Shown: positions 8,964 through 31,884, numbered from the stretch's first letter. The stretch is 36,989 nt of DNA from a virus (IMGVR_UViG_3300009075_000011:1-36989), one strand, 5' to 3'. Made by a program: numbers and translations. Notes: generated by a model from the sequence alone, not told the origin.

Positions 8964-11273
8964 TTAGTACAACGCGACCGAGTGGGCCATTGCCTTCTTT
9001 GTGTCGCCCTTTGCTGTTCCCGCCGCACTTTTTTCTCGTGGTCCGCGAAACTTCTTTTTCAGACCCAATTTCTTCGCAATGCCATCCACCATCGCACGAT
9101 GCTCTGGAGTATTATATGGCAATTTCATGTAGGACGCATTACGGTGCTTCGAAGTATGCGGAATCAAATGCTTGTCAATGTGTGCGTTTTGCTCTGGCGA
9201 AAGATCCTTTGCAACACGCTTGAGATATTCGCTTCTTGACTTTGCAAACATCGAAGATTCGATGATAACCTCCTCGCACAACGAGTCATCCCATTCATCA
9301 GGATTCGTACCTTCTTCCATGCCAGGAGCCTTCGGAGCGAAAACCTTTTCGTCTTCCACCTCATTCTCGTTTGCGCCGCCCTTGCCGCTTTGGGCAGCAT
9401 CAAACGCTGCCTGCATAGCAGGGTTCAGCTTGGCCCACATTTCGTCACGGGCTGCTTGCTGACCAGCAAACTTGATTGGCTGACCTTCTGCATTCTCCCA
9501 CGGCTCACCGTCAACAGCAACAACTACAGGAGCAAAGAATGAACCCATGCGAACATACTTGACTGTCTTGCCATGAATCTGTTCAGACCCTAGAACGTTG
9601 TAGCCTGGGGTTGAATCGAATTCAGAACGAGGTGCGTTGAACGTGCCTGGGACTGCTGCTTTTGGCTCGTAAGAATCCTTAAGAACATCGCCTTCTGGTT
9701 CATACGAAGAGGACATGTATGGAGGCTTCTTTCGTTCCGCTTTGGATAATTTAGATATTGACGTTAGCGGATGTTCCCACTTAGGTTCCGCTTTGGATAA
9801 TTTAGATATTGACGTTAGCGGATGTTCCCACTTAGTTTGCTTGATTTCAGAATTAGGATTTGTCGCGTTCATAACATGGGCATTTTCGCGGGCACGCTTT
9901 GCGGCCGCCTTCGAATACTTAGCGACCTTGCTGTGATGATAGGACTTCGGTGCCTTTTCATCATCATGCAGAACATCTACATGGTCACCGCCCTTTGCAG
10001 ATACATAGCCCTTGCGGGTTCCTACAAGGACCGTATCCCCGACATTGACCTTGCGTGCCGCCTCGTCAAGCGCATCCCTGAAAGCCGCCTTATAGGCGAT
10101 GCGTTCTGATTCTGTGAGATTTGGTTTGTCTGCCATTACTGTGCCCTCAATAGGAATTTCTTGTTTGATCTTGCCATACGAATGTCCGCCATAGCCCGAA
10201 ACTGCACGGTGATAGACAGTTGGTTTGACCCCTGTCTTTGCGTGTAGCTTTACAGCCGCATCCATAGCAGCCTGCTTGTTCAAACCTGTATGGACTTTCT
10301 CGCCAGTCTTGCCGTGATGTACGGTATAGGTGCCTTCGCCTTCGTATGCGAGGGACTCTTTTACGATGTGGGTATGCGGTAGTGCTACACCAACCTTCTC
10401 GCCGCTATGCGTTTTGACCCAGGACCTATCAGCTTCAGTCTTATGAACGACAAACCGCTCGCCCTTTCTAAACATAGGCCCACTTGTGCGCGACCATTCA
10501 CCCACATTCTTCGACACAACAACGTGATCGCCCTGCTTGAAACTTTCACCCAAATCGCCTTCGTGTGAGAGAGATTCATCCAATTCCGTTTCTAGTCCAG
10601 TCAAATCCACTTCTTCTTTGGCAATGCCCTTGCCCTTCATCTTCGCATCGTATTCGACGCGAACACCTTGTCCTGTGTACTTGCCCTTACGCATGATAGT
10701 AGGCTTGCGACCAGTAGTACCATGAATCTGCATTGCAGTTTCAATAGCGGAGTTAAGATAGCGCGTCTGGTGAACGACCTTATCGTCATGATGAACGGTG
10801 TAGGTGTTGAGTTCTGACAACTCACCTTCCACGATAGGCTCGGCGTCCTTAACCACATCTTCCATTTGGGCCTTGACAAATCCCTGACCCTTCAGATGTG
10901 TAATGACCTGATCATGTGACCAACGCTTTTGGGTGTGCTTGATTGCAAGGCCATCAGGAATCGTTTCCCGATGTTCCATATCGTAGTCATAACCACCGCC
11001 CATACGCTTGCCCCAGACGTAGACCTTTTGCTTCGGTCCCTTTTTCCAGATGCTGACAAGACTATCATATGACTCGTCAATCTCCACCTCTTCGGTGACG
11101 TTTGCTGCTGCCATGAATCGCTTGTGATCGAATCGTGGATTGGCTTTCGCGAAAATGCTCGCATGGTGGTTCGCGAGTTCAGCACGCTTCTTTGGGTCTT
11201 GGACAGCCTTCAAGGTGTCCGCCACCATCTGAAAGTGCTTACGCGATACGGCTTCTTTGAGAGATTCTTTCAT
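8964..11273 (-). CDS. Large Lys/His-rich virion-associated protein with repeated modules
   Basis: 769 aa. The N-terminus (MKESLKEAVSRKHFQMVADTL, with DPKKRAELANHHASIFAKANPRFDHKRF) resembles small modules found in internal or head-associated proteins of T4-like phages. The middle contains recurrent short modules of two kinds: YTVHHGKTGEKVHTG-like beta modules (about residues 155-215 and 315-370) and KxGDHVVVxxNVGEW-like SH3-type modules (about 245-300 and 415-445). The C-terminal half carries an exact 17-residue duplication. The protein is hydrophilic and has no transmembrane segment. Enzymatic function is not evident. A packaged or structural role is inferred from position and composition. 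Confidence 0.75.
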   Translation of the reverse strand: MKESLKEAVSRKHFQMVADTLKAVQDPKKRAELANHHASIFAKANPRFDHKRFMAAANVTEEVEIDESYDSLVSIWKKGPKQKVYVWGKRMGGGYDYDMEHRETIPDGLAIKHTQKRWSHDQVITHLKGQGFVKAQMEDVVKDAEPIVEGELSELNTYTVHHDDKVVHQTRYLNSAIETAMQIHGTTGRKPTIMRKGKYTGQGVRVEYDAKMKGKGIAKEEVDLTGLETELDESLSHEGDLGESFKQGDHVVVSKNVGEWSRTSGPMFRKGERFVVHKTEADRSWVKTHSGEKVGVALPHTHIVKESLAYEGEGTYTVHHGKTGEKVHTGLNKQAAMDAAVKLHAKTGVKPTVYHRAVSGYGGHSYGKIKQEIPIEGTVMADKPNLTESERIAYKAAFRDALDEAARKVNVGDTVLVGTRKGYVSAKGGDHVDVLHDDEKAPKSYHHSKVAKYSKAAAKRARENAHVMNATNPNSEIKQTKWEHPLTSISKLSKAEPKWEHPLTSISKLSKAERKKPPYMSSSYEPEGDVLKDSYEPKAAVPGTFNAPRSEFDSTPGYNVLGSEQIHGKTVKYVRMGSFFAPVVVAVDGEPWENAEGQPIKFAGQQAARDEMWAKLNPAMQAAFDAAQSGKGGANENEVEDEKVFAPKAPGMEEGTNPDEWDDSLCEEVIIESSMFAKSRSEYLKRVAKDLSPEQNAHIDKHLIPHTSKHRNASYMKLPYNTPEHRAMVDGIAKKLGLKKKFRGPREKSAAGTAKGDTKKAMAHSVALY
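9734..9835 (-). repeat. Perfect 2 x 51-bp tandem duplication inside a coding gene
   Basis: Positions 9734-9784 and 9785-9835 are identical over all 51 bases. The duplication stays in frame and encodes KWEHPLTSISKLSKAE twice, separated by a single residue. Zero divergence implies either a very recent slippage or recombination event or an assembly artefact. Confidence 0.95.
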
Positions 11274-24086: not shown

Positions 24087-24116
24087 AAAAAAAGCCGCCC
24101 CGCGGCGGCTTTTTCT
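24087..24116 (-). terminator. Strong intrinsic terminator after the tRNA-Leu gene
   Basis: GCCGCC/GGCGGC stem with a 4-base loop, extended by A/T pairs and flanked by T-runs on both strands (seven A's on the plus-strand left side, TTTTTCTTT on the right). It closes the tRNA/small-membrane-protein transcript on the minus strand and could also work in the other direction. Confidence 0.9.
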
Positions 24117-24121
24117 TTATT

Positions 24122-24198
24122 TGGTGCGAGTAGTGGGATTCGAACCCACACTTGAGGGATTTTAAGACCCTTGCCACTACCAATTGCGCTATACTCGC
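24122..24198 (-). tRNA. tRNA-Leu(UAA), with short variable loop
   Basis: A 77-nt cloverleaf with encoded CCA: acceptor GCGAGTA/TACTCGC, T-arm GTGGG-TTCGAAT-CCCAC, anticodon loop CTTAAAA giving UAA. The variable region is only 5 nt, although bacterial leucine tRNAs normally carry a long variable arm. The D-stem is poor (two of four pairs) and the last anticodon-stem pair is T-T. The 5' end overlaps the stop of the 59-aa gene by 10 bases. Anticodon identity is clear; charging identity is uncertain. Confidence 0.85.
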
Positions 24199-24368
24199 AA
24201 GAAAGATGGCAAATGATGGAAGGCTTCAAGCAACGCGACACACGTCCATCCAATCATAGATAGCAACCAGCCCTCTTTTACGTCCCCTGCTGTCGTCCGA
24301 AACTTGTATGCCGAATTGACGGCGAGATAGAGAGAAATTGCAACCATCAACCAATGAATTGCAGACAT
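24189..24368 (-). CDS. 59-aa membrane protein between two tRNA genes
   Basis: ATG at 24368, stop TAG at 24189-24191. Two hydrophobic segments are present (WLMVAISLYLAVNSAY and WLLSMIGWTCVALLEAF) separated by a charged loop (KFRTTAGDVKEG), giving a two-span membrane protein. Its AGGAGG ribosome-binding site is the 3' acceptor strand of tRNA-Thr (24371-24444), and its last three codons plus stop lie inside tRNA-Leu. Production of either mature tRNA would therefore remove the RBS or the stop codon from the message. The function is unknown. Confidence 0.75.
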   Translation of the reverse strand: MSAIHWLMVAISLYLAVNSAYKFRTTAGDVKEGWLLSMIGWTCVALLEAFHHLPSFLRV

Positions 24369-24370
24369 AA

Positions 24371-24444
24371 TGGTGCCTCCTAAAGGAATCGAACCTTTGT
24401 AAACGACTTACGAGGCCGTTGTCCTACCACTGAACGAAAGAGGC
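24371..24444 (-). tRNA. tRNA-Thr(CGU)
   Basis: 74 nt with encoded CCA. Acceptor GCCTCTT/AGGAGGC, D-arm GTTC-AGTGGTA-GGAC, anticodon loop CTCGTAA (CGU, reads ACG), T-arm AAAGG-TTCGATT-CCTTT. The acceptor 3' strand doubles as the Shine-Dalgarno of the following small gene. Confidence 0.95.
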
Positions 24445-24455
24445 TTTGACAGTAT

Positions 24456-24623
24456 TTAGAATAGTTTGCCAACGCAGACCCCAGCGACGACGAGAGCAAC
24501 GACGCCCACGCTCAACATCATCGGATCTCCATCTGCATTACCAATGAGCATAGCTCCAGAAAGGAACAGCATGGACGTAATCAACATACTGAACCACATC
24601 GGCACAATGATCGCAGCAGCCAT
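24456..24623 (-). CDS. 55-aa two-span membrane protein
   Basis: ATG at 24623 preceded by GGAGG at ideal spacing; stop TAA at 24456-24458. Residues ~5-27 (IIVPMWFSMLITSMLFLSGA) and ~37-55 (MLSVGVVALVVAGVCVGKLF) are membrane segments joined by an acidic turn (GNADGDP). It lies between the TROVE/vWA gene terminator and tRNA-Thr. No family is recognised; holin-like or exclusion roles are possible for such proteins. Confidence 0.75.
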   Translation of the reverse strand: MAAAIIVPMWFSMLITSMLFLSGAMLIGNADGDPMMLSVGVVALVVAGVCVGKLF

Positions 24624-24635
24624 ATGACCTCCAAG

Positions 24636-24653
24636 AAGGGGCCGAAGCCCCTT
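24636..24653 (-). terminator. GC-rich UUCG-loop hairpin after the TROVE/vWA gene
   Basis: AAGGGGC and GCCCCTT arms close a four-base loop that reads TTCG on the transcript strand, an extra-stable tetraloop. It starts two bases after the stop codon and is followed by TTCTT. It is either a partial terminator or an mRNA 3'-end protector; genes downstream could be read through. Confidence 0.75.
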
Positions 24654-24655
24654 TC

Positions 24656-26077
24656 TCAGATAGCGTACCGATCCACCATCACCGTGTCAAGCATGATGGC
24701 TTCTGGTGTGAAGCGGTCAAAGTCAGCCTTCAGTACCCCTTGCATTACTGCTGGCGAGAAGCCCGAAATCAAAGCCACCCCTTGATCGTTGAAACGTGCA
24801 GGCACGTTGTCATACGAGTTCAGGTTCCAGAACACGATCTTTGGAAGCTCATAACCAGCAGCCTCGAATCGTGCGCGGGTAGCCTCAAGTGCCGATCCAC
24901 CAAACTTCGCGCAGGCATCGAATTGCATGTCCGACAGAATCAACAGCATGGTCGGCATGTCCTTTGCAGGCACCGCAAACGTCTTTGCGTGCGAAAGAAT
25001 CTTGTCCATCGCCTTCATCAGGTCGGTGTTCATCGCCCAGCTGGATTGAGCCATTTGGTCGATCTTGGACAGAACATTCCCCTTCAGATGCAGCAACTCA
25101 GGCGAACCCGAGAAGGTCAAGAAGGTGTCCTTGAACGCGCCACGGTTCTTGTCAGCAACGTACAGACCCAAAGATACCGCCACTTCAAGGCACGATACCT
25201 TCGTAGGCGACTTCCCCGCACCAATTGGGCAAGTCATGGAACCCGAAACGTCAACCATCGCCAGAACGTTGGTACCGTCCATGTAGTCAGGCAACGCTTC
25301 CCATTGCGACAGAATCACTTGTCCTTCAGCTTCGGACGGCGGGCGACCGTAAACGCCCATCAACCCTTGCAGAACTTGGTACGGGAAAACAGCACCTGCA
25401 TTCACCTTGTCCGTACCCTTTGCCAAACGTGCAGCATAGGCTTCGTATGCTTCCTTCGCGTTGCGATAGAAAGCACCCTTGTAGCGGGTCGATGCCAACG
25501 AAGGCAGCTTACCGAATTCGATCTTGTCCCATGCCTTCGCGCACATGAGAGTTTCAACCACGTTGGTCAGACCAACGAGAGTCTTGCGATATTGCTTTGG
25601 CGACATGCCCATGTACTCACGCAGGGCGATTGCGTCCTTACCCTTACGAGGCATCCACTTCGCTGCCAGGCCGTCACCAGCCAGAAGCGCCATGTGGATG
25701 AACGCGAACGCTTCTTCGCGAAGCTTTTCGTCATAACGAAACACCAGCAGGTCATCCCAACGACCAACTTCTGGAGTCTTGTACATCAGCGCCCTTGCGG
25801 CAGCTGGGTCGCGCACTTCCAGATATTGGAGAATGTCGCGGTAGATTTGACGTTCGCCAGCACCACCACGAACGTCACGGGCCCATTGCGCGAGGCGCAA
25901 TGCGACTTCGCGGTTTTCTTGCAAAGCCTTTGCGAACAAAGGCGTCACATCGCGACCGCGGGAAGCGCCGATCTGGTAGAACAGGTCTACAGTGGCCTTC
26001 AACGAACCAACGAATGCCTCCATGCCGTTGGTGGTAGTGGTACGTTCTGCACCGACATTGGTGACAAAAGTGTTCAT
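24656..26077 (-). CDS. Ro60-like TROVE/vWA RNA-binding protein (DUF2828-related)
   Basis: 473 aa from the ATG at 26077, chosen because AAGGAG lies six bases before it; an in-frame ATG at 26092 lacks an RBS. Residues ~15-250 form an all-helical region with ARDVRGGAGER and PEVGRWDDLLVF, typical of TROVE-like HEAT-repeat rings. Residues ~265-473 are a von Willebrand A domain with the metal-site residues DVSGS (D276, S278, S280) plus NTD and LSDMQFD. Ro60/Rsr proteins bind misfolded RNAs and Y RNAs and help exonucleases or RNA repair. Here a sigma70-type promoter and a ~300-nt structured leader precede the gene. Phage members are usually annotated only as TROVE or vWA proteins. RNA binding is inferred from the family. 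Confidence 0.85.
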   Translation of the reverse strand: MNTFVTNVGAERTTTTNGMEAFVGSLKATVDLFYQIGASRGRDVTPLFAKALQENREVALRLAQWARDVRGGAGERQIYRDILQYLEVRDPAAARALMYKTPEVGRWDDLLVFRYDEKLREEAFAFIHMALLAGDGLAAKWMPRKGKDAIALREYMGMSPKQYRKTLVGLTNVVETLMCAKAWDKIEFGKLPSLASTRYKGAFYRNAKEAYEAYAARLAKGTDKVNAGAVFPYQVLQGLMGVYGRPPSEAEGQVILSQWEALPDYMDGTNVLAMVDVSGSMTCPIGAGKSPTKVSCLEVAVSLGLYVADKNRGAFKDTFLTFSGSPELLHLKGNVLSKIDQMAQSSWAMNTDLMKAMDKILSHAKTFAVPAKDMPTMLLILSDMQFDACAKFGGSALEATRARFEAAGYELPKIVFWNLNSYDNVPARFNDQGVALISGFSPAVMQGVLKADFDRFTPEAIMLDTVMVDRYAI

Positions 26078-26098
26078 CATCATCTCCTTCATGTTAAC

Positions 26099-26164
26099 GG
26101 AATCGCGCCTTTCGGCTATGGTTTCTTGTTAAGAGAAAGTTTGGTTGTTTGCTGAAACGATTCC
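26099..26164 (-). ncRNA. Structured leader element 3 upstream of the TROVE/vWA gene
   Basis: The 66-nt segment begins GGAATCG, continues with TTTCAGCAA, and ends CGATTCC, a perfect 7-bp closing stem. A small inner hairpin (GCC-GAAA-GGC type) precedes the 3' arm. It ends 21 bases before the chosen ATG. It shares layout with elements 1 and 2 although the stems differ in sequence, which is evidence for conserved secondary structure. Confidence 0.65.
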
Positions 26165-26178
26165 ACTTGTTTGTAACA

Positions 26179-26227
26179 GGCTAGCACGTTTAACGTCCGC
26201 CGACCTTTTGGGTTGCTGAATCTAGCC
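26179..26227 (-). ncRNA. Structured leader element 2 upstream of the TROVE/vWA gene
   Basis: 49 nt beginning GGCTAG, then A and TTCAGCAA, closing with CTAGCC. Inside are an ACGTT/AACGT hairpin and a short GTC/GAC pairing. Same architecture as elements 1 and 3, shortest of the three. Confidence 0.65.
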
Positions 26228-26249
26228 TAAAACACTACAGAACAAAAAC

Positions 26250-26366
26250 GGGATAGGGGGTCTGTCTTGATAGACGGGTCCAGTACCCGTGGTCCGTTGC
26301 TCAAAATGGGAGGTTGTACGTCCCCGCGGCAACGTCATGGCTTTGTTAGATTGCTGAAACTATCCC
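26250..26366 (-). ncRNA. Structured leader element 1 upstream of the TROVE/vWA gene
   Basis: 117 nt beginning GGGATAG, then TTTCAGCAA, closing with CTATCCC. Inside are an ACGGGT/ACCCGT hairpin with a 5-base loop and a GTCT/AGAC hairpin. It starts about 14 nt into the transcript predicted from the upstream promoter. It could be a Y-RNA-like partner of the TROVE protein, an autoregulatory leader or a riboswitch; no known class is recognised. Confidence 0.65.
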
Positions 26367-26387
26367 TTTGTCTCACTCAAGATTCCT

Positions 26388-26415
26388 ATTATAGCACCTT
26401 TTGGAATCTTGTCAA
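26388..26415 (-). promoter_or_regulatory. sigma70-type promoter for the TROVE/vWA transcript
   Basis: Consensus TTGACA (26410-26415), 16-bp spacer, and consensus TATAAT (26388-26393). Transcription would start near 26381, leaving a ~300-nt leader. Such a perfect host-type promoter suggests early expression. Confidence 0.9.
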
Positions 26416-26424
26416 TCGGTAAAT

Positions 26425-26793
26425 CTAACGCAGTCCTTCTTGTCTTGCCTTTCGCCTTAACACCTGGCGAGAAGGAATGTCTGCTGGCCGCACCAGTTGA
26501 GTCGGGTGACTCGGATTCGGCACAAATGCTGGGGAGACGAATCCTCGCTTATTGCGTCGTGCGATTTCTCGCTTACCTTGATGGGCAGCCCGTTGCTCAT
26601 ATTGCTTAGGCTTATACCACGCCCGCGCCGGAAGGTTCAATGCGCCCAGATCAAACAGGATCTTCTCCGCCATGTTGCCGATGATGGGCTTCACTACCTT
26701 CTTGCTCATTTCCTCGACGGCTGCATTGTTGCCGTCAATGATTTCTTCGGTAGTCACAACTTCACTCGCCTCTACTTTATTTTCATTATCCAT
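26425..26793 (-). CDS. Unknown 122-aa basic-tailed protein
   Basis: The ATG at 26793 is favoured because GAAGGA lies about ten bases upstream; an ATG at 26802 sits too close to it. The start lies inside the end of the methyltransferase gene. The N-terminal ~45 residues are acidic and the C-terminal ~60 are Arg/Lys-rich (KREIARRNKRGFVSP; RQVLRRKARQEGLR). No family is recognised; nucleic-acid binding would fit the charge pattern. Confidence 0.7.
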   Translation of the reverse strand: MDNENKVEASEVVTTEEIIDGNNAAVEEMSKKVVKPIIGNMAEKILFDLGALNLPARAWYKPKQYEQRAAHQGKREIARRNKRGFVSPAFVPNPSHPTQLVRPADIPSRQVLRRKARQEGLR

Positions 26794-27329
26794 GCGCCCC
26801 ATCCTTCAGTTTTATGTAGCATGATATCGTGTGCAGCAACGAAGGCATTCGTAACTTCCGTAGCCCCATCGCACCCATTTGCACCATAGTCATCCAATAC
26901 CATGATGCCACCTTTGACTAATCTAGGCCAGATGAAATCTAAACAGCCGTGATACGCGAGCCCAGAGTCAACGTCAATATGCGCCAATCTGATTTGCGAA
27001 CCCTCTAGACCAAAAAACGTATTTGGAATGATGCCTTCATGGATACACACATTGTCATGTGCATCCTGCAAGGCGCGGATCGCCTCAAATTCTGCCTCTG
27101 TTATCGCGAAACGGCCGTGCAGTTTCGGTTCGTCACCGATCCTTGGAATCCCGCCACCGAAAGTGTCGAACAAACGCAGCGTGGTAGGGCCGATGATCTT
27201 TAGCAACTCCATTGCCGAACCACCACGATAGACACCACACTCCCAAACTTCTCCGTCTAGGTGATTGGTGCCGATAGCAGACATCCTTAGTCGGGCAAGT
27301 TGTTCAGAACCGCAGATTGATTTCATCAT
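26772..27329 (-). CDS. TylF/MycF-type SAM-dependent O-methyltransferase
   Basis: 185 aa from the ATG at 27329 (another ATG follows at once; a TTG lies at 27335 in the end of the RNase P RNA). Motifs of the TylF family are present: VWECGVYRGGSA (SAM-binding loop), LRLFDTFGGGIP, AHIDVDSGLAYHG with the metal-binding Asp pair, and GGIMVLDDYG. Members methylate sugar hydroxyls or similar small acceptors in a metal-dependent reaction. In a phage it may decorate a virion or host glycan, possibly with the glycosyltransferase at 22943. No clear Shine-Dalgarno is visible, and translation starts immediately downstream of the structured RNA. Confidence 0.85.
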   Translation of the reverse strand: MMKSICGSEQLARLRMSAIGTNHLDGEVWECGVYRGGSAMELLKIIGPTTLRLFDTFGGGIPRIGDEPKLHGRFAITEAEFEAIRALQDAHDNVCIHEGIIPNTFFGLEGSQIRLAHIDVDSGLAYHGCLDFIWPRLVKGGIMVLDDYGANGCDGATEVTNAFVAAHDIMLHKTEGWGAWIMKIK

Positions 27330-27333
27330 GTTC

Positions 27334-27546
27334 AAAAAGGTGATTGGTGGCCGTAGCCGGGATTCTGTTCTATGCTACGATTTATCTTCGCCGCAACCCG
27401 AGCCAATAAGCAAGGAATTCCCTGGCTCTGTTTGCGTTGCTGGCTGTATCACGGTAGTGTCAATGACCGAAGTCTCCTACTCGTTCCTTGCGCCAGTCCC
27501 GAACTTCCTCAGAGATTGCTCTCCGCCGTAACTCGCCTGCCAATCA
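27334..27546 (-). ncRNA. rnpB: Miniature RNase P RNA encoded by the phage
   Basis: 213 nt. It matches bacterial RNase P RNA in order: CR-I GAGGAAGTTCGGGACT (27510-27495), CR-II AACGCAAACAGAG (27438-27426), CR-IV AGATAAAT (27387-27380) and CR-V ACAGAATCCCGGCTACGG (27368-27351). P1 pairs TGATTGG (27546-27540) with CCAATCA (27347-27341). P2 pairs GTTACG (27532-27527) with CGTAGC (27379-27374). P4 keeps the bulged U: AAG-U-UCGG with CCGG-CU. P5 is CTGGC/GCCAG and P7 is CGCAA/TTGCG. P3 and a GAGCCA/TGGCTC hairpin are present, but the ~150-nt specificity domain (CR-III, P8-P14) is essentially missing. The RNA ends in TTTTT. It is about half the size of the host RNA. RNase P removes tRNA 5' leaders. 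Confidence 0.92.
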
Positions 27547-27783
27547 TTAAGGCCCTGGATTATCTGTCAACTCACTTGGCTTAGGCACCACGTGCCATGG
27601 GTTCTTTTCTGCGTACCGGTACCCATCAAACTGTCGCCTCCCAAAATCTTCCGCAATCTCAGCAGAACTAAAAAGGTCTGGGTCAAATGCGCTGCCATAA
27701 TCCTGCCAATACAGACCCCACCAAGGCTTGACCTGAATCTTGTACCTATTCAAGCCCTCATGTCGAAGAATTCGCCAACGCAT
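27547..27783 (-). CDS. Small Trp/Tyr-rich protein, unknown
   Basis: 78 aa; the ATG at 27783 has AAGGA upstream. Its stop codon lies immediately before the P1 helix of the RNase P RNA, so the two must be cotranscribed and the RNA processed out. Aromatic-rich (KPWWGLYWQDYG; FDGYRYAEKNPWHVV). It reads like a small phage domain that binds a partner; no family is recognised. Confidence 0.75.
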   Translation of the reverse strand: MRWRILRHEGLNRYKIQVKPWWGLYWQDYGSAFDPDLFSSAEIAEDFGRRQFDGYRYAEKNPWHVVPKPSELTDNPGP

Positions 27784-27784
27784 G

Positions 27785-27976
27785 TTATTTCCTTCTCACA
27801 ATCGTAGCCATCACATCACCATCATAGGTGACAGTTCCTGGAGAAATGGCATACTCTAGAAGCGCCTCATATCGTTGTTCGAAATTCACTGGGGCGCTCG
27901 TCAGATGCAGAAGCTCCGTAGCAAAACGGACGGCCGCATCTTTGTCTTTGAAGCCTTCGATTACAATTCGTGCCAT
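27785..27976 (-). CDS. 63-aa unknown protein
   Basis: ATG at 27976 with CTGGAG upstream; starts 15 bases after the tRNA-Lys 3' end. Compact alpha/beta composition (ARIVIEGFKDKDAAVRFATE), similar to small ferredoxin-like domains, but I do not recognise a family. The stop is one base from the next ATG. Confidence 0.7.
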   Translation of the reverse strand: MARIVIEGFKDKDAAVRFATELLHLTSAPVNFEQRYEALLEYAISPGTVTYDGDVMATIVRRK

Positions 27977-27991
27977 TACATTCTCCAGTTA

Positions 27992-28068
27992 TGGTAGGGG
28001 CGCCGGGGGTCGAACCCGAACCAGGGGATTAAAAGTCCGCTGTGCAGAAGCCGCTACACCACACCCCC
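27992..28068 (-). tRNA. tRNA-Lys(UUU)
   Basis: 77 nt with encoded CCA. Acceptor GGGGGTG/CGCCCCT (one G-T, one T-G), D-stem GTGT/GCAC, anticodon loop CTTTTAA (UUU), T-arm TCGGG-TTCGACC-CCCGG. One C-C mismatch in the anticodon stem. Confidence 0.92.
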
Positions 28069-28074
28069 GCAAAT

Positions 28075-28479
28075 TCACTTCGCCGGAGCCACCTTGAAAC
28101 CGTGCTTCTTGGCTAGCTCCTCCAACAATTGCTTTTCTGTCTTGGCCTCCTTCAACAACTTCTTTTGATCACGGACAGCCTTCTTGGCTTCGCGGGCCGC
28201 CCTCTCGGCTGCCCTACGCTTTTCTTGCTCATCCACCCACTTGTCAAACCTCTCGACGGTGGTGAGAATGAACTCATCGGAAGACTCGCGTTCGATCAGT
28301 CTATATCCTTGTTCGTAAAGCTTCAAGGCATGAAGGGCCGAAGAAAGCTTTTTAAAGACTGGCTCTTCTACCTTCTGCCAATCGGTGATCTTCGACTTGA
28401 CAAGGTCTACTGTATATTGATAGTCCTCGTAAGAACCTTGATGCTCACCAACTATCCTAATTATCGCTATCTCTCGCAT
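28075..28479 (-). CDS. Coiled-coil protein, unknown
   Basis: 134 aa, between tRNA-Arg(UCU) and tRNA-Lys. The N-terminal half (EIAIIRIVGEHQGSYEDYQY) is a small alpha/beta domain. Residues ~80-125 are a continuous charged helix rich in Lys, Arg, Ala and Glu (EKRRAAERAAREAKKAVR), followed by a short Lys tail. AGGA lies before the ATG at 28479. Its stop is six bases from the tRNA-Lys 5' end. Confidence 0.75.
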   Translation of the reverse strand: MREIAIIRIVGEHQGSYEDYQYTVDLVKSKITDWQKVEEPVFKKLSSALHALKLYEQGYRLIERESSDEFILTTVERFDKWVDEQEKRRAAERAAREAKKAVRDQKKLLKEAKTEKQLLEELAKKHGFKVAPAK

Positions 28480-28489
28480 GATATTATCC

Positions 28490-28567
28490 TGGCACGCCCG
28501 GAAGGATTCGAACCCTCGTCTGTCTGAGGTAGAAGCTCAGTGCCATAGTCCACTCGGCCACGGGCGC
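28490..28567 (-). tRNA. tRNA-Arg(UCU)
   Basis: 78 nt with encoded CCA. Acceptor GCGCCCG/CGGGCGT, perfect anticodon stem CTGAG/CTCAG, loop CTTCTAC (UCU, reads AGA), T-arm GAGGG-TTCGAAT-CCTTC. Confidence 0.93.
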
Positions 28568-28575
28568 ATTGTATT

Positions 28576-28651
28576 TGGAGCCACCGACAGGAATCGAACC
28601 TGCATCTGAACGGTTTAGGAAACCGTTGCCTCTCCATTAGACTACGGTGGC
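28576..28651 (-). tRNA. tRNA-Arg(CCU)
   Basis: 76 nt with encoded CCA. Acceptor GCCACCG/CGGTGGC, anticodon stem ACGGT/ACCGT, loop TTCCTAA (CCU, reads AGG), T-arm GCAGG-TTCGATT-CCTGT. Confidence 0.94.
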
Positions 28652-28659
28652 ATTGTGTT

Positions 28660-28736
28660 TGGCACCCCCGGAGAGATTCGAACTCCCGACCGCAACGTTC
28701 GAAGCGTTGCATTCTAGTCCTCTGAATTACGGGGGC
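28660..28736 (-). tRNA. tRNA-Arg(UCG)
   Basis: 77 nt with encoded CCA. Acceptor GCCCCCG/CGGGGGT, D-stem ATTC/GAAT, anticodon stem CAACG/CGTTG, loop CTTCGAA (UCG, reads CGA and related). The 5' end is one base after the stop of the 69-aa gene. Confidence 0.94.
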
Positions 28737-28737
28737 A

Positions 28738-28947
28738 CTACTTCCATTCTTTTACGTCTATTTGAACACCATCCTGATAGCCAACCATACGGCGGCTATA
28801 GCCAGAAAGACGAGCAAAGTATTCCTGATCCTTCTTGTGAAAGGCCCAATATGTCTTGTAGGCCTTTTCAGTCTCGTATAGCTTGTGTTTCGATTTACGC
28901 CACACATTACGTTTGTCATCACGGTACTGGAATTCGATCTTGAACAT
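28738..28947 (-). CDS. 69-aa basic protein, unknown
   Basis: ATG at 28947 with no Shine-Dalgarno but an AATAAATAC stretch a few bases upstream; the stop is one base from the tRNA-Arg(UCG) 5' end. The sequence is Lys/Tyr-rich (EFQYRDDKRNVWRKSKHK) with a predicted beta-alpha-beta pattern. Small phage proteins of this kind often bind host enzymes; no family is recognised. Confidence 0.7.
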   Translation of the reverse strand: MFKIEFQYRDDKRNVWRKSKHKLYETEKAYKTYWAFHKKDQEYFARLSGYSRRMVGYQDGVQIDVKEWK

Positions 28948-28952
28948 AGTAT

Positions 28953-29216
28953 TTATTCGGTTGGTGGGTAAACGTCGCCATTTTCATCAATCTTCTTTTC
29001 CTCGTAGACCGAAACCGCCCTACGATAGAATTCCAGCTTCACGCACTCCAGCACGCCCACAAGCGCATTATAGTCGGCATACGTCTTGGGGTCAGTTGCC
29101 AACAGCAAGTTGGTGATGGCATAGTTGAGATTGCCCGGGCCGACGCCCGTTTCTTTACGCAATGCCATTACAGCACGCCAAATCGGCGGACGATCCTTGG
29201 TCACAATGTAAGGCAT
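28953..29216 (-). CDS. DUF6899-like small protein
   Basis: 87 aa. The start MPYIVTKDRPPIWR, the middle PGNLNYAITNLLL and ADYNALVGVLECVKLEFYRR, and the ending KKIDENGDVYPP match a small family I know from phages and some bacteria (I believe DUF6899). Helical, cytoplasmic, function unknown. Its start overlaps the region just after the 51-aa membrane-protein stop. Confidence 0.8.
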   Translation of the reverse strand: MPYIVTKDRPPIWRAVMALRKETGVGPGNLNYAITNLLLATDPKTYADYNALVGVLECVKLEFYRRAVSVYEEKKIDENGDVYPPTE

Positions 29217-29217
29217 A

Positions 29218-29373
29218 TCACTTTCCCCAATATTCGTCGATCAAATCAACAATCGTACTCGCAAAAACACCAGCACCGAAGAATGCAAACCCAATCCAAC
29301 CTTCATGCGGAAAGAAGTGGCTCGTTGCAACAAAGATTGCCAGCCAGACTGCCCACGCCATTAACCATCTCAT
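29218..29373 (-). CDS. 51-aa membrane protein
   Basis: ATG at 29373 with TTGGAG upstream; TGA at 29218-29220. Two hydrophobic segments (LMAWAVWLAIFVATSHFF and WIGFAFFGAGVFASTIV) with a short charged turn between and an acidic C-terminus (DLIDEYWGK). The start lies directly at the stop of the upstream gene. Similar in size and design to the two small membrane proteins near 24189-24623. Confidence 0.75.
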   Translation of the reverse strand: MRWLMAWAVWLAIFVATSHFFPHEGWIGFAFFGAGVFASTIVDLIDEYWGK

Positions 29374-29374
29374 G

Positions 29375-30070
29375 TCATTCTCCAAGAACGTTCATCATGA
29401 ACTGATACCGATCGGGATGCCCTTCATGTGTCTCGGTGATGACATCCACGCAAGTCTTACAGTACGTCGGGTTGACGCGAGACACGAAATGGTGCCTCTC
29501 TTTATGAAAGACCTCACCACACAGGCCACACAAGTAATCGTTGTTCACTCCACGATTGCCGTACATATCACGTTTCAGAATGCCTTCAGGCAGCTTGTCG
29601 AGATACGCCAGCATATCGTCAAACTGGGTGAAGATCCGAGTAGACAGACCTTGCAGCCAACCCGGAACTTCGTTCACCCAATCTTCCCACTTCGACACAA
29701 CGAATAGTGGAATGTCGTTGTTGTAGGCGACCTGTGCCTCACTAATCGTACCAGCACCACGGCGGACACTCTCATCGTAGTATAGAATCACCGCATGAGA
29801 GTGCTTCTCCACCAACTCAATGTCAGCATGAATGAAATGCTGACGGACATTCGACTTGTATTGCAGGTGGTTGCCGTTCTTCTCTGTGAAGTAGAGGTTG
29901 CCGTGCTTCTCATTGTATCGCTTATCCAATGCAGTAATGTCGATTGGGTAATACCTCATTGCGAACAACTTATTGGCCACATACTGTCGCCATCCAGAAC
30001 CCAAATCTTCCGCAAACTGCATCCCACCCGACAGATAGATGCTGCCACGGTTGAAAAAGACGTTGCCCAT
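29375..30070 (-). CDS. Nucleoside deoxyribosyltransferase-like protein with C-terminal zinc finger
   Basis: 231 aa from the ATG at 30070, which overlaps the previous stop (TGATG) and has GGAGG upstream. Residues ~10-140 resemble the nucleoside 2-deoxyribosyltransferase/SLOG-like fold: IYLSGGM near the N-terminus, an HSHAVILYYDES strand, and GAGTISEAQVAY with the catalytic-type Glu. Residues ~180-215 carry CGLCGE...HH...CKTC, a zinc-binding site. The enzyme family swaps bases on deoxyribose or binds nucleotide-derived ligands. The zinc-ribbon fusion suggests nucleic acid or protein binding. Substrate unknown. It forms a coupled pair with the phosphoesterase. Confidence 0.75.
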   Translation of the reverse strand: MGNVFFNRGSIYLSGGMQFAEDLGSGWRQYVANKLFAMRYYPIDITALDKRYNEKHGNLYFTEKNGNHLQYKSNVRQHFIHADIELVEKHSHAVILYYDESVRRGAGTISEAQVAYNNDIPLFVVSKWEDWVNEVPGWLQGLSTRIFTQFDDMLAYLDKLPEGILKRDMYGNRGVNNDYLCGLCGEVFHKERHHFVSRVNPTYCKTCVDVITETHEGHPDRYQFMMNVLGE

Positions 30071-30930
30071 CAAACCTCCAAAAGAATTTGGTGGGTATAC
30101 GCCTTCTTCTGATACCCACGCGCAGCAGTCACAATGACCGTATCTCCAACCGGAGTTCTGCGAACATCATGTGTATGACCGTGAAAGTATACAGCAACCT
30201 TCTTGTCGTTGTCAAGGATCAGATTCTCTAGATCCGTTGCTGCGTATGCATAGTCGATCAGGTTCCCACCATGCTGGCTGTTGCAATGCGCCATGATCGG
30301 TGCATGATGCGTCATCACCACTACAGGCACCTCGCCCTTGATCGCCTCCACTTGCTGTACCAGCCACTCACGGTTCTTGCGATACAACTCAACCGTATCG
30401 TACGGCTCAATGCGGACAAAGGTGAAATTCTCGTTCAGTTTGCGGATGTGCCAATAGTCATTTAGGCCCTCTTTGACGGCCCCCATTACAATCGGGTCTG
30501 CGGCACGCAGATCAGTCCACAGCGTGGTGGCAATCACTTGCACGCGGCCATCAATGTCAATTACGTCATTGTCCGCAACAACAAGGTTGTCAATGTGCTT
30601 GGTCGCATCACGAAGGGCATTGATTCCCTCGGCCAACTCCTCATGGTAGAATTCGTGATTGCCCGCAATCATGATCACCTTCTTGTAGGCTGCACAGATA
30701 GCCTCAAGGTCCATCAACGGGCGGCGCTTGAAAGTGCCACCAACACCATCATCCTTGCGTCGAAAAGCATTGATTTCGGCCGTATCCCCTGCGATCAGAA
30801 GAAGGTCGTTCTTGTGTTCGCCATTGACGAGCGGCCCATTCAGATGGTATACGAGGTCGCCGGCGTGGGTTCGGATTAGGCGATTTAAATCCAAATGCAA
30901 ATCAGTTACGCCGTAAACACGCACGATCAT
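30070..30930 (-). CDS. Calcineurin-like metallophosphoesterase
   Basis: 286 aa. All family motifs are visible: DLHLD (~10-14), GDTAE (~48-52), GNHEFY (~90-95), THHAP (~207-211) and HGHTHD (~250-255), which together bind two metal ions. Such enzymes cleave phosphomonoesters or diesters of nucleotides or nucleic acids. Lacking a partner domain, a free nucleotide or signalling-molecule substrate is possible. The ATG at 30930 follows CTGGAG. It is coupled to the deoxyribosyltransferase-like gene, hinting at a joint nucleotide-modifying role. Confidence 0.9.
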   Translation of the reverse strand: MIVRVYGVTDLHLDLNRLIRTHAGDLVYHLNGPLVNGEHKNDLLLIAGDTAEINAFRRKDDGVGGTFKRRPLMDLEAICAAYKKVIMIAGNHEFYHEELAEGINALRDATKHIDNLVVADNDVIDIDGRVQVIATTLWTDLRAADPIVMGAVKEGLNDYWHIRKLNENFTFVRIEPYDTVELYRKNREWLVQQVEAIKGEVPVVVMTHHAPIMAHCNSQHGGNLIDYAYAATDLENLILDNDKKVAVYFHGHTHDVRRTPVGDTVIVTAARGYQKKAYTHQILLEV

Positions 30931-30944
30931 CTCCAGAAAAAGGT

Positions 30945-30971
30945 GGAGCTTTCAGTTGTACAGAAAGCTCC
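30945..30971 (-). terminator. Hairpin between tRNA-Met and the phosphoesterase gene
   Basis: GGAGCTTTC pairs with GAAAGCTCC around a 9-base loop; in the minus direction it is followed by ACC and TTTTT. It may end the tRNA transcript or control entry to the phosphoesterase RBS, which begins a few bases later. Confidence 0.65.
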
Positions 30972-31043
30972 AAACTCTACGGCCGGGGAGTCAAGTTGCC
31001 GAAGCTTGCTTCGCGGGCCGCATCCCGCGTTACCCCAAATTCT

Positions 31044-31120
31044 TGGTCGTCATAGTTGGAGTCGAACCAACCTTGGCCTCGTTATGAGCGAGGTGCATCA
31101 GACCGCTCTGCCATATGACG
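31044..31120 (-). tRNA. tRNA with CAU anticodon (Met elongator or Ile2)
   Basis: 77 nt with encoded CCA. Acceptor CGTCATA/TATGACG, anticodon stem CCTCG/CGAGG, loop CTCATAA, T-arm GTTGG-TTCGACT-CCAAC. C1 pairs with G72, unlike the mismatched C1-A72 of bacterial initiator tRNA, so it is not an initiator. Elongator Met and lysidine-modified Ile cannot be told apart from this. Its 5' end abuts the stop of the Gly-rich secreted protein. Confidence 0.92.
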
Positions 31121-31480
31121 TTACTGTACCCACCGCGTAAAGCAATTTCCTTGCTGAAAGAATGGCGAGTTGCCAGACTGCACACAAACCACGATTGGTT
31201 GTGGCGGATGCACCGGACCCCAATGCTGCACAAACGGTTGTGGCCAGACAGGGACAACTGGCATCGGCGCCACAAACTGTGGCCCACCCCACGCGCCCCA
31301 ACTACCGACCATCGCGCCGGCAGCAAACGCGCCGGCGACTGCCCAACCATTGTTGTGATTGCCTTGCCAATGTCGGCCACCGTTGTTGGGGCCTTGATTC
31401 CAATTATGCCCACCGCGCCCGCCAGCGACAGCAGCAGTCGCCATCAACATCGCTACAAGAAACACCGTAAGACGTTTCAT
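31121..31480 (-). CDS. Secreted Gly/Asn/Pro-rich protein
   Basis: 119 aa from the ATG at 31480, which has GGAG five bases upstream (a GTG six bases earlier is unsupported). It has a signal peptide (MKRLTVFLVAMLMATAAVAGG). The mature part is low-complexity: Gly/His/Asn/Trp-rich, a hydrophobic Ala/Gly stretch (GWAVAGAFAAGAMVGSWGAW), then a Pro/Val-rich segment and two Cys. It resembles small exported Gly-rich proteins of proteobacteria and could be host-derived. The function is unknown. Confidence 0.7.
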   Translation of the reverse strand: MKRLTVFLVAMLMATAAVAGGRGGHNWNQGPNNGGRHWQGNHNNGWAVAGAFAAGAMVGSWGAWGGPQFVAPMPVVPVWPQPFVQHWGPVHPPQPIVVCVQSGNSPFFQQGNCFTRWVQ

Positions 31481-31493
31481 TTTCACTCCAATC

Positions 31494-31570
31494 TGGAAGC
31501 GGGGATGGGAGTCGAACCCACTATCTACGGCTTATGAGACCGTAATGATTTGTGCGATTATTACACCGCT
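31494..31570 (-). tRNA. Degenerate tRNA-like gene with CAU anticodon
   Basis: A 77-nt segment with a good T-arm (GTGGG-TTCGACT-CCCAT), anticodon arm ACGGT/GCCGT with loop CTCATAA, acceptor AGCGGTG/CCCCGCT with one mismatch, and CCA. The D-arm is abnormal: it has weak pairing and lacks the GG pair that docks on the T-loop. It may be a decaying second CAU tRNA or a tRNA mimic. Confidence 0.6.
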
Positions 31571-31596
31571 CATCCGTTTCACTCACCCGCATTAAC

Positions 31597-31673
31597 TGGC
31601 ACCACGTAGAGGAATCGAACCCCTGTAGTCACGCTTCGTAGGCGTGTGCCTCATTCCGCTCGGCCAACGTGGC
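31597..31673 (-). tRNA. tRNA-Arg(ACG)
   Basis: 77 nt with encoded CCA. Acceptor GCCACGT/ACGTGGT, anticodon stem CACGC/GCGTG, loop CTACGAA (ACG; A34 normally becomes inosine and reads CGU/CGC/CGA), T-arm AGGGG-TTCGATT-CCTCT. Confidence 0.93.
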
Positions 31674-31683
31674 ATAAAATAGT

Positions 31684-31743
31684 GTCAGCACGCCCTATGA
31701 CGAGCATTGCGCTCGTCGCCACATCGCTTGTGGCCCCGCTGAC
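31684..31743 (-). ncRNA. Three-way-junction RNA inside the tRNA array
   Basis: GTCAGC (31684-31689) pairs with GCTGAC (31738-31743). Inside are two strong hairpins, GACGAGC/GCTCGTC (31699-31717, 5-base loop) and GCCACA/TGTGGC (31718-31734), joined back to back. There is no tRNA anticodon or T-loop. Either strand would fold; I list minus because all neighbours are minus. It may be a processing signal, transcription roadblock or small RNA. Confidence 0.5.
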
Positions 31744-31759
31744 TGCATATTGGCAAGAC

Positions 31760-31793
31760 TGCTAGGGTCTCACCTTTATTTTTGGGCCTAGCA
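31760..31793 (-). other. Hairpin upstream of the three-way-junction RNA
   Basis: TGCTAGG pairs with CCTAGCA around a 20-base, A-rich loop. It separates tRNA-Asn from the three-way-junction element. No function is apparent. Confidence 0.4.
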
Positions 31794-31809
31794 CCCATTG
31801 ACTTACTTT

Positions 31810-31884
31810 TGGCTCCGGAGGCTGGGATCGAACCAGCGACACACGGATTAACAGTCCGTCGTTCTACCGCTGAACTACACCGGA
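31810..31884 (-). tRNA. tRNA-Asn(GUU)
   Basis: 75 nt with encoded CCA. Acceptor TCCGGTG/CTCCGGA with one T-T mismatch, D-stem GTTC/GAAC, anticodon stem ACGGA/TCCGT, loop CTGTTAA (GUU), T-arm GCTGG-TTCGATC-CCAGC. First gene of the tRNA region in transcription order. Confidence 0.94.

Follow-up and report, generated by a model that had tools for sequence, protein, structure and literature searches.

We have analyzed a linear virus record of IMG/VR (36,989 bases, called here the window), the minus strand of which carries an island of tRNA genes together with a compact RNase P RNA and a gene for a Ro60-like protein with a TROVE fold. We would put at about 70% the probability that this island is a virus-encoded tRNA operon with its own RNase P ribozyme subunit, predicted to trim the phage pre-tRNAs, and that the Ro60-like protein, together with its Y-RNA-like elements, constitutes a separate module. 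The elements of the island are real and none of them is due to chance. A preliminary description of this DNA had listed nine sound tRNA genes, one tRNA-like gene, an RNase P RNA, a TROVE/von Willebrand factor A (vWA) protein with a structured leader, a three-way-junction RNA and a metallophosphoesterase, and all of these identifications held. None of the three types of molecule, RNase P RNA, Ro and Y RNA, is new in itself. What is new, relative to the openly licensed literature, is the family of compact phage-borne RNase P RNAs, of which we found no description there, a prior description being possible.

The RNase P RNA fills the space that separates two open reading frames of the same strand (27547-27783 and 26772-27335), and its parts are placed as follows (CR, conserved region):

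27342..27545, minus strand: compact RNase P RNA, from P1 to P1 (RNaseP_arch 46.9 bits; family model R1 140 bits)
27497..27505, minus strand: P4 5' strand with the bulged U, part of CR I (P4 covariation; U in 35/35)
27454..27480, minus strand: P7-P8, the specificity-domain remnant (covarying P7 and P8; no P9-P12)
27380..27387, minus strand: CR IV, AGAUAAAU, J18/2 region (AGAURAAU conserved in the alignment)
27355..27368, minus strand: CR V (ACAGAA) and P4 3' strand (invariant ACAGAA; pairing)

The match to the Rfam model RNaseP_arch (RF00373) is clear (E=5e-11) and lies well under the cut-off of 84 bits, so that a default Rfam scan misses this RNA. Several of the relatives described below give Rfam RNase P matches of 44-66 bits, with E-values of 1e-14 to 7e-18 in several cases and all below the cut-off; by the gathering cut-off, neither they nor the window RNA reach curated Rfam membership. 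A search of the window with the bacterial model RF00010 gave no match, a matter of sensitivity and not of absence, since both RF00373 and our own family model detect the RNA. To collect the family we used a search pattern derived from CR I, IV and V and scanned IMG/VR with three spacer ranges, obtaining 28, 11 and 11 contigs (50 in total) with a compact RNase P RNA. For the covariance model R1 we used 26 sequences, namely the window, the isolated Stenotrophomonas phage vB_SmaS-DLP_6 and, from the first scan, 24 loci. The 140 bits of the window RNA are therefore those of a training sequence; the 11 + 11 contigs of the second and third scans were held out of R1, and all of them scored 51-130 bits.

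GAGGAA and ACAGAA are invariant across the alignment. As the contigs were found by pattern, the pattern itself accounts in part for the invariance of these motifs, of AGATRAAT and of the bulged U, but not for the helices. Over 35 sequences the seven nested helices had 95% of their cells paired and 23 of the 27 pairs compensated, a level that none of 500 shuffles reached, while slid structures of the same alignment were only 30-49% paired; fitting the alignment to the structure favours the structure, but the contrasts with slides and shuffles are nonetheless very large. Three further pairings lie outside R1. The P4 pseudoknot has 8 pairs, most of them covarying, with the bulged U invariant in 35/35; the P6 pseudoknot pairs over a greater length within sequences than when the partners are permuted (0/1000 permutations reach the observed value); and P1 is supported by the same permutation approach (0/300). 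These results bear directly on the possibility that the RNA is merely a passenger, taken up with host tRNA genes, now decaying and without present function. Rfam scores below threshold and a patchy distribution would fit such an origin, but the very strong compensatory change over 35 divergent sequences, the invariant catalytic residues and a shared compact architecture that is almost absent from the sampled cellular genomes make it hardly credible, and for the family the covariation rules out decay. With the most compact spacer range there were 28 matches in IMG/VR vs. 3 in prokaryote genomes (84,980 species, 257 Gb), all 3 on contigs with tRNA genes. One of the arrays on cellular contigs (L163, 1460-7859) consists of 32 tRNA genes enclosing a compact RNase P RNA, on a 487-kb contig of Achromobacter anxifer, and is perhaps a prophage or an integrated element.

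Helices P1, P2, P3, P5, P7 and P15/P16 and the P6 pseudoknot are all present in the family. In cellular RNase P, the P9-P12 region with CR II/III binds the T-loop of the tRNA. This region is missing from the compact members, in the alignment of which only P7-P8 are left between the P5 strands. Judged from sequence, then, the catalytic domain (P1-P6, P15/P16, CR I, IV and V, P4 bulged U) is retained and the T-loop-binding part of the specificity domain is lost. The members are not uniform: several relatives (e.g., DLP_6, L110 and L111) have kept further helices, in P8 or close to P18, and the putative CCA-contact loop reads GGGAA in the window type and GGU in most members. Bacterial class A RNase P RNA (RF00010) shares with the phage RNAs P1-P5, the P6 pseudoknot, P15/P16, CR I, IV and V and the P4 bulged U, and several phage loci give matches over the full model length at 56-66 bits. 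The phage RNAs differ in being ca. 200-270 nt long, mostly without P9-P12 and CR II/III and usually without P18, in scoring below the curated cut-off, and in lying in viral tRNA operons with no RnpA gene in the record. In the archaeal type T RNase P RNA of the Thermoproteaceae (Pyrobaculum) the specificity domain is also reduced to a small remnant, and its size is near that of the phage RNA. P12 is missing from it (PMC8172020). The likeness is one of architecture only. That RNA works with archaeal proteins; the phage RNA keeps a bacterial CR IV/V context and P6. A more divergent RNase P RNA (38 bits with R1) was found at 10594-10789 of a 191-kb, tRNA-rich viral contig (L097), which suggests more than one acquisition.

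The nine tRNA genes of the window all lie on the minus strand, the strand of the RNase P RNA, ARAGORN and Rfam agree on each of them, and all nine encode CCA:

24122..24198, minus strand: tRNA-Leu(UAA)
24371..24444, minus strand: tRNA-Thr(CGU)
27992..28068, minus strand: tRNA-Lys(UUU)
28490..28567, minus strand: tRNA-Arg(UCU)
28576..28651, minus strand: tRNA-Arg(CCU)
28660..28736, minus strand: tRNA-Arg(UCG)
31044..31120, minus strand: tRNA-Met(CAU)
31597..31673, minus strand: tRNA-Arg(ACG)
31810..31884, minus strand: tRNA-Asn(GUU)

This arrangement recurs throughout the family. DLP_6 carries its RNase P RNA, unannotated, at 105774-106022 (RF00010, 54.7 bits), and compact RNase P RNAs are also present in the uncultured huge phages LR756501/LR756503 (735 kb) and LR756511 (595 kb). 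Records with the RNase P RNA contain tRNA genes in 38 of 40 cases, mostly 8-56 each. A tRNA gene lies within 5 kb of the RNase P RNA in 39 of 49 loci and within 200 nt in 30 of them, often within 20 nt, and 401 of the 402 nearby tRNAs are on its strand. By comparison, only 1 of 18 random IMG/VR loci had tRNAs; this control was unmatched for genome size, so part of the contrast comes from the carriers being large phages, which leaves the strand and distance figures unaffected. Among the rejected candidates, the blastn matches in Enterocloster and mycobacteriophage were weak, and the Enterocloster match that was inspected fell in a coding region without an R1 match, so we consider them chance. 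Other RNAs noted are a GOLLD RNA containing a tRNA (L111, 1003-1462), the compact RNase P RNA being present in the same phage, transfer-messenger RNA (tmRNA) in L102, L120, L148 and the TROVE locus L047, and a permuted-tmRNA match in L103.

In known RNase P structures the J18/2-P2-P3 side contacts the protein subunit RnpA. This side is retained in the phage RNA, and RnpA itself was found in none of the 40 RNase P RNA records (mostly fragments), the same search being positive in 10 of 14 control genomes. As the contact side is kept and no RnpA is encoded, the enzyme most likely takes the form of a hybrid with the RnpA of the host; action without a protein is possible. The RNase P RNA would be made on the polycistronic tRNA transcript, pair with host RnpA, recognize its substrates through the acceptor stem and the encoded CCA, and cleave the 5' leaders of the phage pre-tRNAs, leaving a tRNA supply that host RNase P would not limit. 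For the family at large we lean, if only slightly, toward the view that huge and tRNA-rich phages share a virus-specific RNase P ribozyme, nearly free of the specificity domain, made inside tRNA operons and joining host RnpA as a hybrid viral-host RNase P.

The same retention of the RnpA side in the absence of an encoded RnpA would also suit a host take-over device, in which the phage RNA ties up RnpA or changes what RNase P cuts, steering it off host substrates or onto phage mRNAs and tRNA-like RNAs, the trimming of phage tRNAs not being its main job; loss of the specificity domain would moreover alter substrate choice. We regard this as improbable, because a mere sponge would not need a catalytic core that is fully conserved with covariation, and the same-strand embedding in tRNA arrays points to tRNA substrates. 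Several facts do weigh against the trimming of phage pre-tRNAs as the role of the RNA. Some carriers lack a tRNA in the vicinity, and one such record, of 94 kb, is entirely without tRNA genes; of the 507 tRNAs in RNase P RNA loci, 336 encode CCA and ca. one third do not, so dependence on CCA is not uniform. The RNase P RNA is missing from many tRNA-rich phages (79 of the 80 TROVE records), hence the host is evidently able to mature phage tRNAs. Without most of the specificity domain the ribozyme activity may be weak or specialised, and the contigs are fragments.

The closest parallel to the proposed role is that of the theta ribozymes, which also reside in phage tRNA operons and, according to the proposal made for them, render the phage independent of a host enzyme of tRNA processing (PMC10879173); they differ in being self-cleaving, like that of hepatitis delta virus, and in having been proposed for 3' trailers, while the phage RNase P RNA would act in trans on 5' leaders. 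Neither the DLP_6 paper nor the huge-phage paper mentions RNase P, and the Rfam scan of a circular-megaphage survey gave only tRNAs and one tmRNA (PMC8172020), consistent with the sub-threshold scores found here: default Rfam cut-offs hide the compact phage RNA. Should the proposed role be true, it would explain how tRNA-rich phages could mature their tRNAs at times when the RNase P of the host falls short or is attacked. The presence of the RNA in dozens of other large, tRNA-rich viruses suggests that a virus can come equipped to finish tRNAs by itself. RNase P RNA is among the few ribozymes present almost everywhere in cells. This near-universal housekeeping ribozyme would then have entered the viral gene pool, and would supply natural minimal bacterial-type RNase P RNAs in which substrate recognition could be studied without the usual specificity domain.

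The other part of the island is the TROVE gene with its leader:

24656..26092, minus strand: Ro60/Rsr-like TROVE-fold protein with vWA domain, 478 amino acids (DUF2828/DUF7788; PHROG RNA-binding protein; fold)
26099..26164, minus strand: Y-RNA-like element C, directly preceding the TROVE start (motif scan; stem compensated in L110; fold z -2.7)
26179..26227, minus strand: Y-RNA-like element B (motif scan with control; L110 conservation)
26250..26366, minus strand: Y-RNA-like element A, GGGAUAG-UUUCAGCAA...CUAUCCC-GUU (motif scan with control; L110 conservation)
26388..26415, minus strand: perfect sigma-70 promoter TTGACA-16-TATAAT with TG before the -10, ahead of the Y-RNA-like elements and TROVE (hexamers kept in L110)

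A sequence search of solved structures with the TROVE protein returned a fimbrial-subunit match alone and no Ro, so the identity comes from the fold search. With the predicted structure (pLDDT 77), the top nine Foldseek matches comprise the TROVE domain, the Ro60 of Thermus phage phiLo, vertebrate Ro60 and Deinococcus Rsr, the best E-value being 5e-9 at a TM-score of about 0.57. The DxSxS of the vWA metal-ion-dependent adhesion site is present, with D281, S283 and S285 invariant in 27 sequences. The three leader elements share the form stem-UUCAGCAA-variable-stem-GUU. Folded whole, the 5' leader is not significant (z -0.57), and the elements become clear only by comparison: of 72 phage TROVE genes, 64 have the stem motif upstream, vs. 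0-11/72 when random stretches from these loci are scanned. The window elements have no match in Rfam, and those of two relatives match YrlA below the Rfam cut-off (L005, E=6e-5; L023, E=1e-3). They are best read as putative phage Y RNAs. Several Y-RNA-like elements enclose tRNA-like arms, with Y-RNA-like stems around such arms at ca. 2375-2490 of L005, 9395-9910 of L008 and 9295-9430 of L023, apparently circularly permuted in L005 and L023; these stems appear to be an unlisted phage branch of YrlA-type RNAs. With bacterial Ro60 (Rsr) and its Y RNA/YrlA the phage system shares the fold, the upstream Y-RNA-like stems and the YrlA matches, but it belongs to a DUF2828/DUF7788 branch that is 12-18% identical to the Ro proteins of known structure. 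Ro proteins encoded by phages, and possible Y RNAs of phages, have been described before (PMC7824862, PMC12282133, PDB 9l5y). Protein and elements are probably a second module, for quality control and decay of tRNA or structured RNA.

The preliminary description had gone further and proposed, from the clustering, that the phage uses these elements for maturation and quality control of its tRNAs at a time when the RNA metabolism of the host is shut down. In such a single system the RNase P RNA, the Ro/TROVE protein, the Y RNA and the phosphoesterase would work together. All of these elements do lie within one 8-kb region in the window and in L110, with ca. 10 kb between the modules in DLP_6. 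Across relatives, though, the modules assort independently. Only 1 of 80 TROVE records has the RNase P RNA (R1), and it is the window's own virus; no TROVE record longer than 95 kb has one, and RF00010, which detects the RNA of DLP_6, found none in 19 long TROVE records, so no full-length RNase P RNA is hidden there. Conversely, of the 40 RNase P RNA records, 8 contain DUF7788, one of them with a weak match. As most of the RNase P RNA and TROVE records are fragments, these co-occurrence rates are lower bounds. A single joint system is therefore very unlikely. Independent occurrence in relatives, which the preliminary description had named as refuting its idea, is what we see for the link between TROVE and RNase P, but not for that between RNase P and the tRNAs. 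What survives of that proposal is the association of the RNase P RNA with tRNA arrays (38/40 records, 401/402 tRNAs on its strand) and, separately, that of the Ro/TROVE genes, which adjoin tRNA arrays; each module is tied to the arrays independently and not to the other, and we have no evidence for one system.

The genes around the island are phage-type by PHROGs (ribonucleotide reductase, primase, exonuclease, cytidyltransferase). An identical copy of the stretch is found in contig 3300027975_000015 (L001/L101), and the close relative L110 (contig 3300037851_000026) has the tRNAs, RNase P RNA and TROVE gene in the same order as the window. The remaining features of the array are:

30070..30930, minus strand: calcineurin-like metallophosphoesterase (Pfam PF00149; phrog_1649)
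31497..31571, minus strand: atypical tRNA with CAU anticodon and odd D-arm (tRNA-Sec, 24.7 bits; no ARAGORN call)
31674..31809, minus strand: three-way-junction RNA between tRNA-Asn and tRNA-Arg (fold z -2.96; L110 conservation)

The element at 31497-31571 is taken as an atypical tRNA because ARAGORN calls its L110 counterpart tRNA-Met(CAT). The fold of the three-way-junction RNA beats 200 of 200 shuffles and is kept in L110, where one arm shows a compensatory change and the CCACAAGCGAUGUGG arm is identical; with no match in Rfam, it could be a new small-RNA family of phage tRNA operons. Between the start of the metallophosphoesterase and tRNA-Met, on the minus strand, another structured element (30931-31043; fold z only -1.5, no match in Rfam) has a core, GCAAGCUUCGGCAACUUGAC, in common with L110, followed by a hairpin. 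Lastly, a strong terminator-like hairpin (24089-24114) sits just downstream of the array's final tRNA.

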